Positions 2,241-8,032 of a DNA stretch of 20,151 nt are shown in pieces (within the stretch, counting starts at the first letter, position 1; each line of letters begins with the position of its first letter). This DNA comes from an uncultured Candidatus Saccharibacteria bacterium. Lineage in GTDB: Bacteria; Patescibacteria; Saccharimonadia; Saccharimonadales; CAMLKC01. Where the stretch lies: contig CAMLDM010000012.1 in assembly GCA_946479025.1 (NCBI GenBank), positions 1 to 20,151 on the forward strand. Reading direction: 5' to 3'. The notes under the pieces were generated by a model. It was not told the origin of the DNA. It did not search any database and saw nothing but the letters and a program-made list of their open reading frames with translations. Position numbers and translations under genes: made by a program.

Positions 2241-2249
2241 ATTATACCA
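2241..2249 (-). promoter_or_regulatory. Extended -10, leaderless, for the PH-domain gene
   Basis: Minus strand TGG-TATAAT, then AGAGGA, then ATG (2234). The hexamer ends six bases before the start codon and overlaps the ruvB stop codon (2242-2244). AGAGGA could act as a Shine-Dalgarno sequence on read-through mRNA from ruvB, whereas transcripts from this element would be leaderless. Confidence 0.55.
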
Positions 2250-3270
2250 ATTTCTGCTGGTTTTCGGCGGCTTCTTTACCGAGATGCCTATAGGCTTTTG
2301 GCGTAACTCGCCGGCCGCGAGGCGTTCGTTCGATGAAGCCAAGCTGCAAAAGATACGGCTCGTAAAAATCTTCGATCGTCGTCATTTCGTCGCCGGTCAG
2401 CGCGGCGATAGTATTCAGCCCAACAGGGCTGTCGCCGTAGTTTTCAATGATACTCAAAAGAAGTCGGCGGTCGGCTGGGTCAAGTCCAAGCTCGTCCACC
2501 TCAAGCAGCTCAAGCGCTCTCTGCGTTATTACCGTATCGATAATCCCGTCGCCGTTCACGTCGGCGTAGTCGCGTACACGTTTTAATAGACGGTTGGCGA
2601 TTCGCGGCGTCAGGCGAGCACGGGTCGAAAGCATCTGGGCAGACTCTGGGTGGATTTTACTCTCCAAAATCGCCGCCGCCCGTGTGATAATCTGGCCGAT
2701 TTCTTCGGGCGTGTAAAATTCCAGCCGGTAAATGTGGCCGAAGCGGTCCCGGAGCGGTGCCGCCAGTGCGCCCGTCCGCGTTGTCGCGCCAATGACCGTG
2801 AACTTTGGTAGATCTAGCCGCACACTGCGTGCCGCCGGCCCTTTACCGATCACGATATCAAGTTTGAAATCCTCCATCGCGCTATAGAGCACCTCTTCAA
2901 CGGCACGACTCAGGCGGTGAATTTCATCAATAAACAGCACGTCACCGTCGGCCAGGTTCGTGAGTATACTTGCAAGATCGCCGGCGCGTTCAATCGCCGG
3001 TCCGGCCGTCACGCGGATATTCGTGCCCATTTCGTTGGCAATTACCGTTGCCATAGTGGTTTTCCCAAGTCCTGGCGGGCCATAAAGAAGCACGTGATCG
3101 ATCGGTTCGCCGCGTTTTTTTGCCGCATCGATCGCCAGCTTCAGATTCTTCTTTAGCCGCTCCTGCCCGACATACTCTGAAAAATGCTGCGGACGCAGGT
3201 TCACCTCAATCCGCTGTTCGTCCGCGTCTTCATCATGCGCGCTAGTGTCGACGATACGTTCTACAGCCAT
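2242..3270 (-). CDS. ruvB: Holliday junction branch-migration helicase RuvB
   Basis: A full-length 342-residue AAA+ motor that drives branch migration of Holliday junctions with RuvA and hands them to RuvC. Walker A GPPGLGKT lies at 64-71, Walker B FIDEIH at 113-118, sensor I in IGATTRTG at about 160, the arginine-finger region in [16 protein letters not shown], and the C-terminal winged helix includes [16 protein letters not shown]. Length and motifs match the family. AAGGGAAGT lies just upstream of the ATG at 3270. It is separated from ruvA (7457-8032) by a 4-kb accessory island, which is unusual because ruvA and ruvB are commonly adjacent. A promoter-like element precedes it. Confidence 0.98.
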
Positions 3271-3341: not shown

Positions 3342-3914
3342 CTAAGATTCTTTGTTTTCGATTTCGCGCTGTACGAGTTCGCGGAGAATTTCCGCCTTTG
3401 TCTTGCCGGTTTTCAGCGCAGCCCATCGAAGATAGTTGTAGATAGGGCGGTCGATAAAGAAATTGAAACGCATATCCTTGGTGGAAATGTTGTTTTCCTG
3501 CAAAAACTTGGTGACAATCGTGTCCACGCTCTCTTCCGTGTATTTTTTATACGTGATACCCGTTTCGATGCCGCTTGCAAAAAATGATTTTTCAACACCC
3601 TCACGGTTCAATACGAGTGCCGGTTTCTTCATACTGATCGCCGTAGCAACCTGATAGCCGACACTAAAACTCGGCGTGCTGGTTTCTGCAACCACGACAT
3701 CGGCGCGGCTAATCGCCTCAACGCTGTCTTTGTAGAGCAGCGACCAGTCAGTGGCGCCGGGGTTCTGAGCCGCCTGATCCCGCACCTCATACGAAGCGTC
3801 AACCCAATCGTGAGCTAAAGTGTGGCCCTCTCTTTGAATGATCTCTACCAAATTACGTAAATGATCAATATTTTTATCAATCTCATCCCTGGAACCGATA
3901 AGGTGAACGAGCAT
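3342..3914 (-). CDS. NDT-like sensor domain plus ribbon-helix-helix protein (paralogue A)
   Basis: A 190-residue protein, one of four similar ones in the island. The N-terminal part (about 1-135) has the alpha/beta pattern of nucleoside 2-deoxyribosyltransferase-like folds: MLVHLIGSRDEID, then DWVDASYE, then RADVVVAETSTPSFSVGYQ and ATAISMKKPALVLNRE. Where active enzymes have Glu in the GTxxExG motif this protein has Gln (VGYQ), by eye alignment. The C-terminal part (about 150-185, RFNFFIDRPIYNYL...TGKTKAEILRELV) matches the beta-helix-helix layout of CopG/Arc-type DNA-binding domains. I chose ATG 3914 over the in-frame GTG at 3920 because AAGGGAA (3921-3927) is six bases from the ATG but abuts the GTG. 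It lies downstream of the sulfotransferase-like gene on the same strand. Likely a ligand-responsive DNA-binding regulator; signal and targets unknown. Confidence 0.75.
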   Translation of the reverse strand: MLVHLIGSRDEIDKNIDHLRNLVEIIQREGHTLAHDWVDASYEVRDQAAQNPGATDWSLLYKDSVEAISRADVVVAETSTPSFSVGYQVATAISMKKPALVLNREGVEKSFFASGIETGITYKKYTEESVDTIVTKFLQENNISTKDMRFNFFIDRPIYNYLRWAALKTGKTKAEILRELVQREIENKES

Positions 3915-3985
3915 AGCCACTTCCCTTCATTAAATTTAGCGCGTCATATAAAATAACATCCAATCACAGTATACAGGAAAGGAGA

Positions 3986-4822
3986 CTACAGGTGAAGCTC
4001 TTCTCTTGCAAGCGCCATGAAATCATTATATGGCTGACGGCACTTTTCCTCGATTATCTTAGCCATTTCAGGGGCTACCTGGTAATTATTATTGCTGTAT
4101 GTGTATTTTTTCCTCAAGTAGGTGTTTTTTATGTTGTAATCAAAAAACTCTTTATCGGCTGCTTGGCCTTTTACCAGCTTTTTCTCGATCTGTTCTACGT
4201 CAAATTGCAGGCTGAGATCAGCCGAATCGAGCCCTATCGCATCCAGCAGCGCTTTTACGACTCGCTCCTCATTATCCTTAAGAAGATCGTACGCAAACGG
4301 TATAACCTTCATGCCTTTTTGGCGGTATTTATAAAAATGCTCGATCGTATACGCCTGCGTCTCACTGAAAACTTCGGCGTCCGCATCAGCTATATCGGGA
4401 TAACCCCATGACGCCAGAGATCGGATCGGATCTCTTAAAAATGTTATCCATGTGATGTTTTCCGCAGGGATGCCGGCCCTAAGAAGCATGTCGATCGGAT
4501 CATATGTTTCATTCAACCGGACGCCGAAGACCTCTTTCGTACATATAAGTTCATCGCCTTCGTATAGTTCAAAGTCGGGCTTTCCTCTTCGAAGAATGGT
4601 CTTCTGGGGCTGAAAATAAACGCGGTCTACTTGCGGGTGGCCGGCTAGCAAAAACAGCATAGCGGTGGTTCCGGCGCGTGCCGGGCCCGACCAGCCAATA
4701 ACGCGTGGAGGCTTTCCGCTATGCGGCAGGTGGGTCGACTTCACGACGTCATCGGGAGTAAAATGAAATTTACCGGCGTGTGCCTCATATGAACCCGAAG
4801 GACCGCCTACAGTATCTGGCAT
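3986..4822 (-). CDS. Sulfotransferase-like P-loop protein
   Basis: A 278-residue protein. The P-loop variant WSGPARAGTTAM (about residues 44-55) resembles the 5'-phosphosulfate-binding loop (xRxGTT) of sulfotransferases, and FLRDPIRSLASW (about 128-139) resembles their second, 3'-phosphate-binding motif (Arg...Ser). FLLAGHPQVDRVYFQP after the P-loop also fits the family. No signal peptide or membrane helix is seen, so it is probably cytosolic. Known sulfotransferases move sulfate from PAPS to sugars, lipids or proteins; no PAPS-synthesis genes are in view, so the donor could differ and a kinase-like role is not excluded. It is divergent from the three-gene paralogue operon and upstream of paralogue A on the same strand, with its own strong promoter. 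Family call is moderately sure, substrate unknown. Confidence 0.65.
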   Translation of the reverse strand: MPDTVGGPSGSYEAHAGKFHFTPDDVVKSTHLPHSGKPPRVIGWSGPARAGTTAMLFLLAGHPQVDRVYFQPQKTILRRGKPDFELYEGDELICTKEVFGVRLNETYDPIDMLLRAGIPAENITWITFLRDPIRSLASWGYPDIADADAEVFSETQAYTIEHFYKYRQKGMKVIPFAYDLLKDNEERVVKALLDAIGLDSADLSLQFDVEQIEKKLVKGQAADKEFFDYNIKNTYLRKKYTYSNNNYQVAPEMAKIIEEKCRQPYNDFMALAREELHL

Positions 4823-4861
4823 GCAATTGACTCTTTTACTTTATTATTGAAACAAAGTTAT

Positions 4862-4890
4862 ATTATACATGTTTATTTTACTTATGTCCA
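4862..4890 (-). promoter_or_regulatory. Strong sigma70-like promoter of the sulfotransferase-like gene
   Basis: Minus strand TGGACA (4885-4890, five of six), 17-base spacer, perfect TATAAT (4862-4867). Transcription from near 4855 would leave a leader of about 33 bases. No good Shine-Dalgarno sequence is seen before the ATG at 4822 apart from a weak AAAAGAG. CGAG (4892-4895) and CTCG (4901-4904) form a small dyad just upstream of the -35 box, a possible operator. Confidence 0.65.
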
Positions 4891-4954
4891 GCGAGACTGA
4901 CTCGTTGTCGCTTCTATATTACATGCTATCACTAAACACAAAAAATCGCATCCC

Positions 4955-4983
4955 TTGATAAGGTCAGGTAAGTATTTTAAAAT
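4955..4983 (+). promoter_or_regulatory. Leaderless sigma70-like promoter of the three-gene paralogue operon
   Basis: TTGATA (4955-4960, five of six), spacer of exactly 17, TAAAAT (4978-4983, five of six). The hexamer ends seven bases before the ATG at 4991, so transcription should begin on or one base before the start codon. No Shine-Dalgarno sequence is present in the A/T-rich bases before the ATG, which fits leaderless translation. Confidence 0.7.
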
Positions 4984-4984
4984 A
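4973..4984. repeat. Perfect 12-bp palindrome over the -10 box (possible operator)
   Basis: TATTTTAAAATA reads the same on both strands and covers the -10 element of the paralogue operon. Its position would let a dimeric ribbon-helix-helix protein block the promoter. The A/T-only composition makes chance occurrence plausible. Confidence 0.35.
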
Positions 4985-4990
4985 TAGCAT

Positions 4991-5572
4991 ATGATAGTGC
5001 AGGTAGATGGCAGCGCGAAAAACCTGAAGGAGGATCTCCCTTTCTACCAGGCGATCGTCGAGGTTATCCACGACAATAGCGCAGTAACGGCGCGCGATTG
5101 GATCAGCGCCGCGCAAAATAATCTCGATAAGAACATCGCCCGCGACAACACAAAGGTTGAATGGGAAGATGTCCACAAGGAAAACAGCGAGGCGATTTCC
5201 CGGTCGGACATCGTCATTATTGAGGCGACAAACTACGGCTTTCAGGAAGGTTTTTACACCTCCGAGGCATTGCGGCAAAAGAAGCCTGTCCTACTGCTCA
5301 CCCGCGAAGATATCCGCGGCAAGCTAGTCTCTGGTTTCCGGCACAAGCTGCTCTTGGTCCAGCATTACGACGACGTGGAGAGCCTTAAGAAAATCGTCAA
5401 CAAGTTCATACGGTCCAATACGATTGCCACTAAGGACCTGCGCTTTAACTTCTTTATCGACAGACAGATCTATAGTTACCTTCGCGAAGTATCTTACGAA
5501 ACCGGCAAAAACAAATCGGAAATCATCCGTGAGCTGCTAGAAAAAGAGATCGACAAACAGGACAAGGACTAG
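4991..5572 (+). CDS. NDT-like sensor domain plus ribbon-helix-helix protein (paralogue B)
   Basis: A 193-residue protein and the first gene of a three-gene operon. The N-terminal domain has MIVQVDGSAKNLKEDLPFYQ, RDWISAAQ, then SEAISRSDIVIIEATNYGFQ and EGFYTSEALRQKKPVLLLTRE. The equivalent of the transferase catalytic Glu is Tyr here, unlike the Gln of its relatives. The C-terminus (about 152-190, DLRFNFFIDRQIYSYLREVS then ETGKNKSEIIRELLEKEI) is a clear ribbon-helix-helix module: one beta strand, helix, turn with Gly, second helix capped at KSE. The second half of that module is nearly identical in DNA to gene D. Start at ATG 4991 is fixed by a promoter whose +1 falls at 4990-4991. The stop is three bases before gene C. 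Likely a DNA-binding regulator; ligand unknown. Confidence 0.75.
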   Translation: MIVQVDGSAKNLKEDLPFYQAIVEVIHDNSAVTARDWISAAQNNLDKNIARDNTKVEWEDVHKENSEAISRSDIVIIEATNYGFQEGFYTSEALRQKKPVLLLTREDIRGKLVSGFRHKLLLVQHYDDVESLKKIVNKFIRSNTIATKDLRFNFFIDRQIYSYLREVSYETGKNKSEIIRELLEKEIDKQDKD

Positions 5573-5575
5573 CTT

Positions 5576-6145
5576 GTGATCGTTCATCTTACCGGCAGCC
5601 TGCGTGACATGGAAACCGATACGAAATATCTGCGCAGTGCCATCGAAACCATCCACAATCACGGCGCCGTGCTTGCGCGGAGCTGGCTTGAGGCCGCCAT
5701 CGCCCGGTACAAAACCAATCAAAAACATGAGGATTGGAGCGATTATGTGCAGCAAAATATCGATGCTATAAAAAAGTCCGATGTCGTTATTATCGACACC
5801 ACGCACCAATCATTCAGCCACGGCTTTCAGCTGATGGCAGCCCTAGACTACAAGAAGCCGACGCTCGTTATCACGCGCGACAGGCTCGCTGCAAAAAAGT
5901 ACATCGGCGGGCTCGCTAATCCGCTGTGCTCACTAAAAATCTATAAAAGCCAGGCGGAATTAAATGGCATCGTATCCTCGTTTCTTACGCGCAATACAGT
6001 GTATACGAAAGACTTGCGTTTTAATATGTTCCTCACGCGCGATATCGTAAAGTTCCTCGACGAGCGCTCGCGAGAAACAGGCCGTAGTCGATCGGAAATC
6101 ATCCGTGCGCTTATTAAACACCAGGTCGAGGAGAACCGCCCATGA
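5576..6145 (+). CDS. NDT-like sensor domain plus ribbon-helix-helix protein (paralogue C)
   Basis: A 189-residue paralogue starting at GTG 5576, with AAGGA (5564-5568) seven bases upstream inside the end of gene B. It keeps the family layout: MIVHLTGSLRDMETDTKYL, RSWLEAAI, then SDVVIIDTTHQSFSHGFQ with Gln at the catalytic-Glu position, and ALDYKKPTLVITRDR. The C-terminal ribbon-helix-helix (about 148-184) is DLRFNMFLTRDIVKFLDERS then ETGRSRSEIIRALIKHQV, closest of the set to textbook CopG-like sequences. Its ATGA junction with gene D implies coupled translation. Function inferred as for the other paralogues; different sensor residues suggest a different ligand or a heteromeric partner role. 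Confidence 0.75.
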   Translation: MIVHLTGSLRDMETDTKYLRSAIETIHNHGAVLARSWLEAAIARYKTNQKHEDWSDYVQQNIDAIKKSDVVIIDTTHQSFSHGFQLMAALDYKKPTLVITRDRLAAKKYIGGLANPLCSLKIYKSQAELNGIVSSFLTRNTVYTKDLRFNMFLTRDIVKFLDERSRETGRSRSEIIRALIKHQVEENRP

Positions 6146-6732
6146 CAGGCACGCCCCTGCTGCATGTTCACATTGCCGCCAGCGGCAATGATCTAGAGCA
6201 TGACCTGCCTTACTTGAAAAAAATCGTTGCTACTGCCTACGACAATAACGCGATCGTATCACGCAACTGGATAGACGCGGCGGTCGCAAGAAAAAAGAAA
6301 ATCGCCGACGAAGAGATCGATTGGTCGGAAATACTAAATGAAGACTTCGAAGATACTCGCCACGCAGATCTAGTTATCGTAGAAGCAACGGCGCAGGAGC
6401 TGAACCAAGGTATACAGACGTACATCGCCGCACAGTACAAAAAACCAACGCTTCTACTTGCACGCTCCAACCTCGAAGGGCGCTTCACTTCCGGCGTCGC
6501 CAACAAATACATCACCATAAAATCATACGAGACTGAAGACGATCTAGGGAAGATGGTCGGCAAATTCATCAGGCAGAATGCCATTGCCGAAAAAGATCTG
6601 CGCTTCAATTTTATACTCAACCGCCGGATTTATAAATATCTTCGCGATAAATCTTACGAAACAGGCAAGAACAAGTCGGAAATCATCCGCAGAATACTCG
6701 AACAAGAAATCAAGCGGCGAGAAAACAAGTAA
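6142..6732 (+). CDS. NDT-like sensor domain plus ribbon-helix-helix protein (paralogue D)
   Basis: A 196-residue paralogue, last of the operon. It overlaps gene C by four bases (ATGA) and has GAGGAG (6128-6133) eight bases upstream. The sensor part reads LLHVHIAASGNDLEHDLPYL, RNWIDAAVARKK, ADLVIVEATAQELNQGIQ (Gln at the catalytic-Glu position) and AAQYKKPTLLLARSN. The ribbon-helix-helix module (about 157-193) is DLRFNFILNRRIYKYLRDKS then ETGKNKSEIIRRILEQEI, very close to gene B (43 of 49 bases match between 5481-5529 and 6641-6689). B and D may therefore recognise similar DNA while differing in the sensor domain. No terminator is visible after it. Confidence 0.75.
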   Translation: MTGTPLLHVHIAASGNDLEHDLPYLKKIVATAYDNNAIVSRNWIDAAVARKKKIADEEIDWSEILNEDFEDTRHADLVIVEATAQELNQGIQTYIAAQYKKPTLLLARSNLEGRFTSGVANKYITIKSYETEDDLGKMVGKFIRQNAIAEKDLRFNFILNRRIYKYLRDKSYETGKNKSEIIRRILEQEIKRRENK

Positions 6733-6884: not shown

Positions 6885-7460
6885 ATGAACGTAGCCACAC
6901 AAATAAGCGGCAACATTCGCCCAGGCAACACCGCGCTCCGGGCACTCAAAAGCATGCTTTCTTACGTCGGTATCATCGTGACTCATCCCACTGCAGATGA
7001 GTCACTTTTTTATGAGACCGACGCAAACGCAGCATGGCGGCAGTACGACAATGAGCTGGAGTTCTACCGGTCGATTGCCGATTCGTCGTTCCACATTATC
7101 TACAACGACGGCGAGATTGATAACGAGATCGGCCTGCAGATCGTCTACGCTATGCTAAAAAACCGCCCGATTCTCATGACGGGCATGCCTGTGTTTGCCA
7201 GCGACTTAAGCCTCTTCATCCGCGACACAATCAAAAAGCACATGCGCGATTTTCACTTCGTGAAATTAGCCGAACTCGAACTTACCGAGCTGAGCCTACT
7301 GCTTAATCAACTGAAGCCGACGAATTACAACCTTACAAAAAGCGAGAAAATCCTCATAAATGCCCGGGTAAAGTCCCTCTTTCGCAGCCTACTGAACGAC
7401 GCAAAGGAACTGCGTCTCTCGAAAGTCCAAAGTATGATCCACCCGATTGAAGAAAGTTAA
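6885..7460 (+). CDS. Diverged NDT-like protein without ribbon-helix-helix (paralogue E)
   Basis: A 191-residue protein I do not recognise as a named family. GAGGAGGT (6873-6880) four bases before ATG 6885 fixes the start; an in-frame GTG at 6831 has no such support. After an N-terminal stretch with MLSYVGIIVTHPTADES, it contains SFHIIYNDGEIDN then EIGLQIVYAMLKNRPILMTG. This matches the paralogues' motif x-G-(hydrophobic)-Q-x3-A-x3-K-(K/R)-P, including the Gln. The C-terminus (LTKSEKILINARVKSLFRSL) is helical but lacks the beta strand and TGxxxSE turn of a ribbon-helix-helix. It may be a sensor-only partner of the regulators, by inference. It converges on ruvA and shares the palindromic stop TTAA (7457-7460). 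Confidence 0.65.
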   Translation: MNVATQISGNIRPGNTALRALKSMLSYVGIIVTHPTADESLFYETDANAAWRQYDNELEFYRSIADSSFHIIYNDGEIDNEIGLQIVYAMLKNRPILMTGMPVFASDLSLFIRDTIKKHMRDFHFVKLAELELTELSLLLNQLKPTNYNLTKSEKILINARVKSLFRSLLNDAKELRLSKVQSMIHPIEES

Positions 7461-8032
7461 CCCTTCAACGCCTGAGTCACCCGCTCAGCCGTAGAGATAT
7501 CTGTCGGCACATCCTCAAGCGCGCGCGTGGCATCATTAAGATTGTATCCGAGCGCCATCAGCGCTTCGAGCGCCTCGTCGCCGTTAGTCCGATTCGGCTC
7601 ATTCGCAGATGCAGGGCCGCTACTTTGTAATGCCAGCCCCACTTTATCGGTGAGATCGACCACGACACGCTCAGCGATCCGCTTGCCGACGCCGCTCGCC
7701 CGAGTAATAAACGCGCTGTCGCCATTTGCGATCGCGTTTCGCACTGTCTCGCTCTCACCCAGGCTGAGAATTGCAAGTGCGGCTTTCGGTCCGACGCCCT
7801 GTACGGTAATCAGCATTTCGAACAGTTTTTTAGCGGCCAAACTTGTAAACCCAAAAAGTTCCTGTGACTGCTCACGGATATGATGATACGTGTGAAACTT
7901 CATCGGCTCATTCAAAAGCGCGCGTTCATAATCCCCGAGCGCCACGGCTACCTCATACCCAACTCCATGCACATCCACGATGACGGATGAATTAAATTTT
8001 TCGGCAACTATTCCAGAAACATGTGCAATCAT
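7457..8032 (-). CDS. ruvA: Holliday junction DNA-binding protein RuvA
   Basis: A 191-residue protein that binds four-way junctions as a tetramer and loads RuvB. The N-terminal OB-fold (MIAHVSGIVAEKFNSSVIVD, VHGVGYEVAV, YHHIREQSQELFGF) is followed by two helix-hairpin-helix motifs (LITVQGVGPKAALAIL, about 74-89, and ASGVGKRIAERVVVDL, about 112-127). A short variable linker leads to the RuvB-binding domain III (about 145-191, DEALEALMALGYNLNDATRA). Length is typical. It follows the penicillin-binding protein gene with an 18-base gap and has a promoter-like GATAAT six bases before its ATG. Confidence 0.97.
   Translation of the reverse strand: MIAHVSGIVAEKFNSSVIVDVHGVGYEVAVALGDYERALLNEPMKFHTYHHIREQSQELFGFTSLAAKKLFEMLITVQGVGPKAALAILSLGESETVRNAIANGDSAFITRASGVGKRIAERVVVDLTDKVGLALQSSGPASANEPNRTNGDEALEALMALGYNLNDATRALEDVPTDISTAERVTQALKG

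Follow-up and report, generated by a model that had tools for sequence, protein, structure and literature searches.

A recurrent fusion of a DNPH1-like domain to a ribbon-helix-helix module in Patescibacteria, probably a family of local transcriptional regulators

Repressors of the ribbon-helix-helix (RHH) type include Arc, CopG and NikR, and in NikR the RHH comes first and is followed by a metal-binding ACT domain. HicB antitoxins carry a C-terminal RHH behind another domain, and the DNA-binding domain of NrtR is a winged helix. DNPH1/Rcl and MilB/BlsM are nucleoside 5'-monophosphate N-glycosidases, and the active site of DNPH1 is common to two subunits (PMC10483697). NrtR is described as an auto-repressor whose palindrome lies between its own gene and the operon that it targets, and whose M. 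smegmatis form is catalytically dead (PMC6800001). Here we analyze a stretch of 20,151 nucleotides, hereafter the window, from an uncultured Candidatus Saccharibacteria bacterium (assembly GCA_946479025.1, contig CAMLDM010000012.1, positions 1 to 20,151), in which four genes, g1 to g4, encode a DNPH1-like domain followed by a C-terminal RHH. An earlier sequence-only reading of the window knew of no named family with this domain order, and we found no published account of the architecture in the literature covered, which was mostly open-access and without preprints. The architecture is real, recurrent and, as far as searched, undescribed; its parts list is new, and the principle of an enzyme turned sensor is familiar. 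We consider it probable that the fused proteins are one-component transcriptional regulators that act as local autorepressors. They would then parallel NrtR in joining an enzyme-derived domain to a DNA-binding domain, in auto-repression and in having a palindrome in a common promoter. The two are unrelated and differ in both enzyme fold and DNA-binding domain, the window proteins having a DNPH1 fold and no Nudix match.

The four fused genes belong to one family. The gene g2 (4991..5572, + strand, 193 aa) leads a three-gene operon and encodes the DNPH1-like domain at residues ~1-144 and the RHH at residues ~145-193. It is followed after 3 bases by g3 (5576..6145, + strand; GTG start, 189 aa), which overlaps g4 (6142..6732, + strand, 196 aa) by an ATGA. 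On the opposite strand lies g1 (3342..3914, - strand, 190 aa), whose open reading frame (ORF) extends over 3342-3920 with the ATG at 3914 as the likelier start. The four paralogues of 189-196 residues and the tight coupling of g2, g3 and g4 thus stand as first described. Homology runs end to end: in single BLASTP comparisons g2 is 36, 39 and 44% identical to g1, g3 and g4 (E = 2e-44, 4e-45 and 2e-55, respectively), far beyond chance. Pairwise values are given for homology; whole-family profiles include the window proteins, so their E-values are not independent.

Further proteins with the same two domains were recovered from Patescibacteria genomes and from databases. A search with the g2 protein returned 293 relatives at E<=1e-3. 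The alignments of the 120 listed span 91-100% of g2; few of these have a taxon name, two being assigned to Candidatus Saccharimonadales and one to Streptomyces. The g2 relative P0034 (76% identity) lies on a 957,675-base contig labelled Streptomyces caniscabiei, which is probably a Saccharibacteria chromosome within a Streptomyces assembly. Searching from 26 distant members gave 315 relatives at E<=1e-6, and Pacebacteria, Shapirobacteria and Patescibacteria are the taxa of the few named among the 120 listed. A scan of the GTDB collection with patterns derived from close relatives yielded 5 loci, all in Saccharibacteria, and a larger family sample held no additional close loci. The window itself has Saccharibacteria as its nearest relatives; it is most likely part of the chromosome of such a bacterium, which is probably tiny and dependent on a host. 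Matches occurred in 66 of 392 genomes of a class sample at E<=1e-3, mostly partial or single-domain, and in 50 of 379 genomes of a phylum sample at E<=1e-8, many of them full-length; full-length relatives are found in a minority of the sampled Patescibacteria genomes. The analyses below use 76 fused genes, matched at E<=1e-10 with the RHH included, from 69 of the 71 loci examined, one locus (L116) being omitted as a repeat of another (L115). ORFs were called mechanically, and starts and small genes are accordingly rough. Loci, genomes and database proteins carry L, G and P numbers, respectively.

The N-terminal domain had been likened to nucleoside 2'-deoxyribosyltransferases (NDTs). The related fold stands, and DNPH1 is nearer: it is the closest solved relative by both profile and structure comparison, and the AlphaFold2 model of g2 (predicted local distance difference test score 88) shows the DNPH1 fold. 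A DNPH1/Rcl/MilB fold, that of the nucleoside-5'-phosphate N-glycosidases, is well supported by this model in preference to that of the classical NDTs. The NDT family PF05014 matches g1, g2 and g3 weakly, all below the curated cut-off (best 21.7 vs 28.8 bits), and the Pfam listing gives no match for g4 at E<=1. The window proteins differ from NDTs in these scores, in the missing catalytic residues and in the RHH; active NDTs were set aside. The catalytic set of DNPH1 (Tyr, Asp and Glu; 24, 80 and 104 in the human protein) is not retained in the fused proteins. Asp and Glu occur together in none of 196 fused proteins (120 from databases and 76 from genomes, with one identical sequence common to both sets; 3 are gapped at the Asp position), compared with 12 of 13 single-domain relatives. 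Gln or Tyr replaces the catalytic Glu in g1 to g4, and g4 retains the Asp, at position 65, with Gln instead of the nucleophilic Glu. Because the pair is gone from the fused proteins and kept in their single-domain relatives, the N-terminal domain is probably a pseudoenzyme sensor. The lost pair and the added RHH likewise set the family apart from the DNPH1/Rcl and MilB/BlsM enzymes.

It could be argued that the fused proteins are active nucleotide N-glycosidases or deoxyribosyltransferases in which the RHH serves merely for oligomerization or for seating on DNA. The closest fold is indeed that of an enzyme, 17 of the 76 genome members retain the Glu, and one source names three RHH-fused members (P0236, P0295 and P0318) 2'-deoxynucleoside 5'-phosphate N-hydrolase. 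Against this stand the complete absence of the Asp+Glu pair, the Gln or Tyr substitutions in the window proteins, and palindromes in divergent promoters that suit a regulator, and we regard active enzymes as very unlikely. The N-hydrolase labels are probably misannotations. The relative P0043 is annotated in another source as a negative regulator of replication initiation.

The C-terminal RHH holds for g3, which scores 29.8 bits against Pfam RHH_1 (cut-off 20.5), and nearly so for g2 and g4, which as whole proteins fall slightly under the Pfam RHH cut-off; the C-terminus of g2 alone equals the RHH_3 cut-off, and that of g4 is below it. For g1 alone there is no Pfam RHH match; its assignment depends on alignment to the other paralogues, and it has a weak CopG-like PHROG match (E 0.03). 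Among 82 family members, 17 matched RHH_3 and 3 matched RHH_1 at E<=1e-3. A C-domain profile built from 20 members and compared with PDB retrieved mostly RHH proteins, each weakly (E 0.018 to 1.6); these were TTHA0139, NikR, AvtR, CopG and VapB26. With the full profile, Arc residues 5-43 aligned to positions 147-184 (E 0.93), and the family residues R151-F152-N153 fell on the Arc strand, whose residues presumably contact DNA. R151 is present in 120/120 database members and in 60/76 genome members (with Lys in 15 more), and N153 in 120/120 and 53/76. The monomer model of g2 has helices at 158-171 and 175-192, preceded by a stretch without helix or strand; the strand pair of an RHH would form only in a dimer. 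An RHH in the fused family is well supported by these sequence comparisons. The proteins resemble Arc, CopG and NikR in their putative strand-helix-helix order, in the predicted RFN strand aligned to Arc and in putative palindromic operators; they differ in carrying the RHH C-terminally, behind a DNPH1-fold domain.

The RHH is a usual DNA-binding fold of antitoxins, and the fused proteins might be the antitoxins of toxin-antitoxin pairs, with an autoregulating RHH and an N-terminal domain that binds the toxin. Weak RelB/HicB-like matches were also returned, and genes read as PIN-like adjoin three fused genes (L056, L097 and L110). The partner gene varies (methyltransferase, NUDIX, sulfotransferase-like, glyoxalase, Gfo/Idh and others) and no toxin is constant. 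No toxin-like gene was recognized by reading among the window neighbours and no HicA-like partner was recognized; the N-terminal domain of the family is unrelated to that of HicB. We regard the antitoxin explanation as very unlikely.

Operator-like palindromes were sought in the upstream regions of 58 of the 76 fused genes; the other 18 were dropped for a gap of <30 bases, including L080 and L085, where the neighbouring ORF is over-long. The words TACATA/TATGTA were enriched upstream of fused genes (24/58 vs 40/387, p 3.5e-8, 2079 words tested); these upstream regions are also AT-richer (32 vs 37% GC). An expectation-maximization motif scored 62.8, compared with 32-38 in six shuffles, and held-out scores beat shuffles at p<0.05 in 3 of 5 splits. 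A clear form occurs in a subgroup of five loci (L081, L082, L085, L086 and L088), whose fused proteins are 49-72% identical and whose promoters contain forms of TGTGTA-N5-TACACA starting 36-75 bases before the start codon. That of L085 lies 36 bases ahead of the start, although the gene is outside the motif set, and L080 has a related form by eye. In L082 the palindrome, TGTGTAGTCATTACACA, stops 9 bases short of a TATAAT box, which in turn precedes the start codon by 7 bases; a bound dimer would therefore cover the -35 region, and repression is the simplest reading of this layout. A second palindrome, TGTGCATATTRCACA, was found in L078 and L089, and L079, L080 and L057 have similar forms. TGTRYA-N5-TRYACA (<=1 mismatch) was present in 6/8 of the discovery group, in 3/50 of the rest (L052, L083 and L087) and in 0/387 of the background; the pattern was defined after viewing the discovery group, so the rest and the background form the fairer test. 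Genome-wide, TGTGTARTCATTACACA (<=2 mismatches) occurred at the fused-gene promoter in G510, G523, G596, G706 and G665 and at one extra site (G706), and its reversed control gave one match; because these five genomes themselves supplied the sequence, the informative part is how seldom it occurs elsewhere.

Fused genes also tend to stand back to back with their upstream neighbour, and in the five-locus subgroup the palindrome lies in the promoter region common to the two. The upstream neighbour is divergent for 46 of 74 fused genes (2 more lie at contig ends), compared with 228 of 644 other genes of the loci (p 9e-6). Among 138 immediate neighbours were 8 NUDIX genes and 10 methyltransferases, and among 120 genes 4-5 places off there were 3 of each; this far control comprises 120 of 138 genes drawn from 223, pieces cut by the locus end and one g5 being excluded. 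About 1.5 NUDIX genes would be expected among 138 (599 in 53 genomes; P about 2e-4). All eight NUDIX neighbours (L055, L057, L078, L080, L081, L082, L085 and L088) are Pfam-confirmed, and all except that of L055 are the divergent upstream neighbour. Enzymes of this nucleotide-cleaning type are the clearest partners of the fused genes in the relatives. The description 'MTH1-like' for some of them comes by reading only and is unclaimed. Pfam also confirms a Ham1-like gene in L083; by-eye labels of thymidylate-kinase-like (L052), Ham1-like (L089) and nucleotidyltransferase (L050) were unconfirmed by Pfam at E<=1e-3.

In the mechanism that we favor, the C-terminal RHH would dimerize and bind a short palindrome in the promoter that serves both the regulator gene and the gene divergent from it, where it would probably block RNA polymerase and so repress both genes. 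The DNPH1-fold domain, having presumably lost nucleotide cleavage, would probably bind a compound resembling a nucleoside 5'-monophosphate at a site spanning the dimer interface, and DNA binding would change as a result. In the window, a 168-bp region (4823-4990) would control g2-g3-g4, perhaps with the downstream gene g5, together with the divergent partner gene (3986..4822, - strand), which lies upstream of g1 and is sulfotransferase-like by sub-threshold matches. Two candidate operators lie in this region. An imperfect 36-bp palindrome at 4852..4887 overlaps the -10 element of the partner gene's promoter-like site; within it, at 4863, lies TTATACATGT, the best match to the weak general motif. 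The palindrome TATTTTAAAATA at 4973..4984 overlaps a -10-like box of g2, and recurs in much the same position ahead of the G263 orthologue. AT-rich palindromes arise easily, so both are leads only.

Several results weigh against autorepression, in addition to the Glu retained in some genome members. Held-out motif scores failed to beat shuffles in 2 of the 5 splits. The second palindrome form is at the fused gene in only 2 of 5 genomes (G499 and G779) and occurs once elsewhere in G499 too; in G763 and G776 it is elsewhere only, and G004 has none. The subgroup operator (<=2 mismatches) has 5 matches in the window compared with 4.6 by chance, and zero in the intergenic parts of the cluster. The weak general motif places the upstream region of g2 at the 96th percentile of background and has no notable match upstream of g1 (69th percentile). 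The window partner gene is no recognized nucleotide enzyme. The NUDIX excess is non-significant in the near vs far comparison (8/138 vs 3/120, p 0.16), and four of the eight cases (L081, L082, L085 and L088) look orthologous by sequence, which reduces the independent events to perhaps four or five. We regard autoregulated repression as likely.

The cluster is larger than the four genes first noted. A fifth gene, g5 (6888-7457, + strand), encodes a single-domain protein with a long C-terminal helix and no RHH; its placement in a DNPH1/NDT/TIR-like fold comes from its model, and by position and predicted fold it belongs to the cluster. Searching PDB with the g5 profile brought up nothing but a portal protein (E 0.9) and an unrelated glycoprotein from a virus (E 0.005). 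A more elaborate possibility is that g2, g3, g4 and g5 form hetero-oligomers, with several sensors acting on one promoter and g5 as a DNA-free modulating partner. The tight gene coupling, the 1:1 orthologue of each of g2, g3 and g4 in G263, the sharing of the DNPH1 site between two subunits (PMC10483697), and g5-type genes beside a fused gene or one gene off in 8 loci (window included) are consistent with this. The predicted DNA-contact residues are identical in g2, g3 and g4 and their sensor parts have diverged, so that under autorepression, too, several ligands could act on one promoter. On the other side, comparison of the g5 and g2 family profiles (hhalign) gave a probability of 0.8%, no sequence link, and several loci have one fused gene and no g5; we consider hetero-oligomers unlikely.

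As to the ligand, the Saccharibacterium Candidatus Teamsevenus rhizospherense is described as having no de novo nucleotide synthesis and 20 8-oxo-dGTPase genes (PMC6031116). Its genome (CP025011) carries two fused genes (L056 and L057). This scavenging and the 8-oxo-dGTPases make a nucleotide ligand plausible, no more. A broader and tentative proposal, which we think rather unlikely as a whole, is that Patescibacteria living on scavenged nucleotides hold phylum-wide nucleotide-sensing switches made from a killed DNPH1-type hydrolase and an RHH. Each copy would gauge a particular modified or damaged host nucleotide and control an enzyme nearby that cleans or modifies. In the window lineage, three sensors and an RHH-less partner would combine into mixed oligomers at a single promoter and work as a small logic gate that reads nucleotide quality. 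A family of dead-hydrolase sensors with a named subgroup palindrome would make the way such cells sense and check scavenged nucleotides directly testable in E. coli.

The sequence-only reading had also raised phage infection as a source of the signal, and a sensor that detects infection-linked nucleotides and switches on a defence gene is, we think, very unlikely. PADLOC gave two weak, partial matches to unrelated models, and the partners that can be named are mostly metabolic. In viral contigs, 43 pattern matches from an 82-member alignment yielded zero confirmed relatives, and tblastn of plasmids and phages with one core member (P0114, E<=1e-3) found none; both searches would miss distant ones. 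A defence island or mobile element was likewise considered and set aside. The outline of that reading survives, with a dead DNPH1 in place of the NDT and phage sensing unsupported.

The whole g1-g5 cluster is enclosed by ruvB (2242..3270, - strand) and ruvA (7457..8032, - strand; Pfam-confirmed). The arrangement ruvA-[g5][variable gene][g1]-ruvB is found in the window, G002 and G180; G005 and G071 have it but lack g5, and in G263 contig ends fall between the two halves. Relatives of g1 adjoin ruvB in all five of these other genomes. As their variable gene, G002, G180, G263 and G005 have a methyltransferase and G071 a class-I synthetase-like protein. In the second main setting of the window lineage, the neighbour is uvrA-like, and g5-like genes are often present as well (L003, L048 and L049); L050 lacks the g5-like genes, and in L001 uvrA is further away. 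Several gene names in both settings are by reading. In L049 the fused gene adjoins a homologue of the window partner gene that is 43% identical to it. At a contig end in L062 (G263:C7:57090-57510), next to g1, is a fragment of a family gene that contains a stop codon, probably a decaying paralogue.

Other neighbours recur in smaller numbers. Gfo/Idh oxidoreductase genes lie near the fused gene in L052, L056, L058, L077 and L087 (3/138 immediate neighbours), some of these loci also having, by reading, an aminotransferase of the DegT type together with a NUDIX-like gene; this group is possibly a small-molecule pathway controlled by the fused gene. PrnB-like genes (PF08933) make up 4/138 neighbours and were placed by reading in L059, L060, L064 and L065, where an island with genes read as Ham1-like and methyltransferase-like lies beside a divergent subgroup. 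CYTH-domain genes (PF01928) account for 3/138 neighbours and were placed by reading in L053, L112 and L113.

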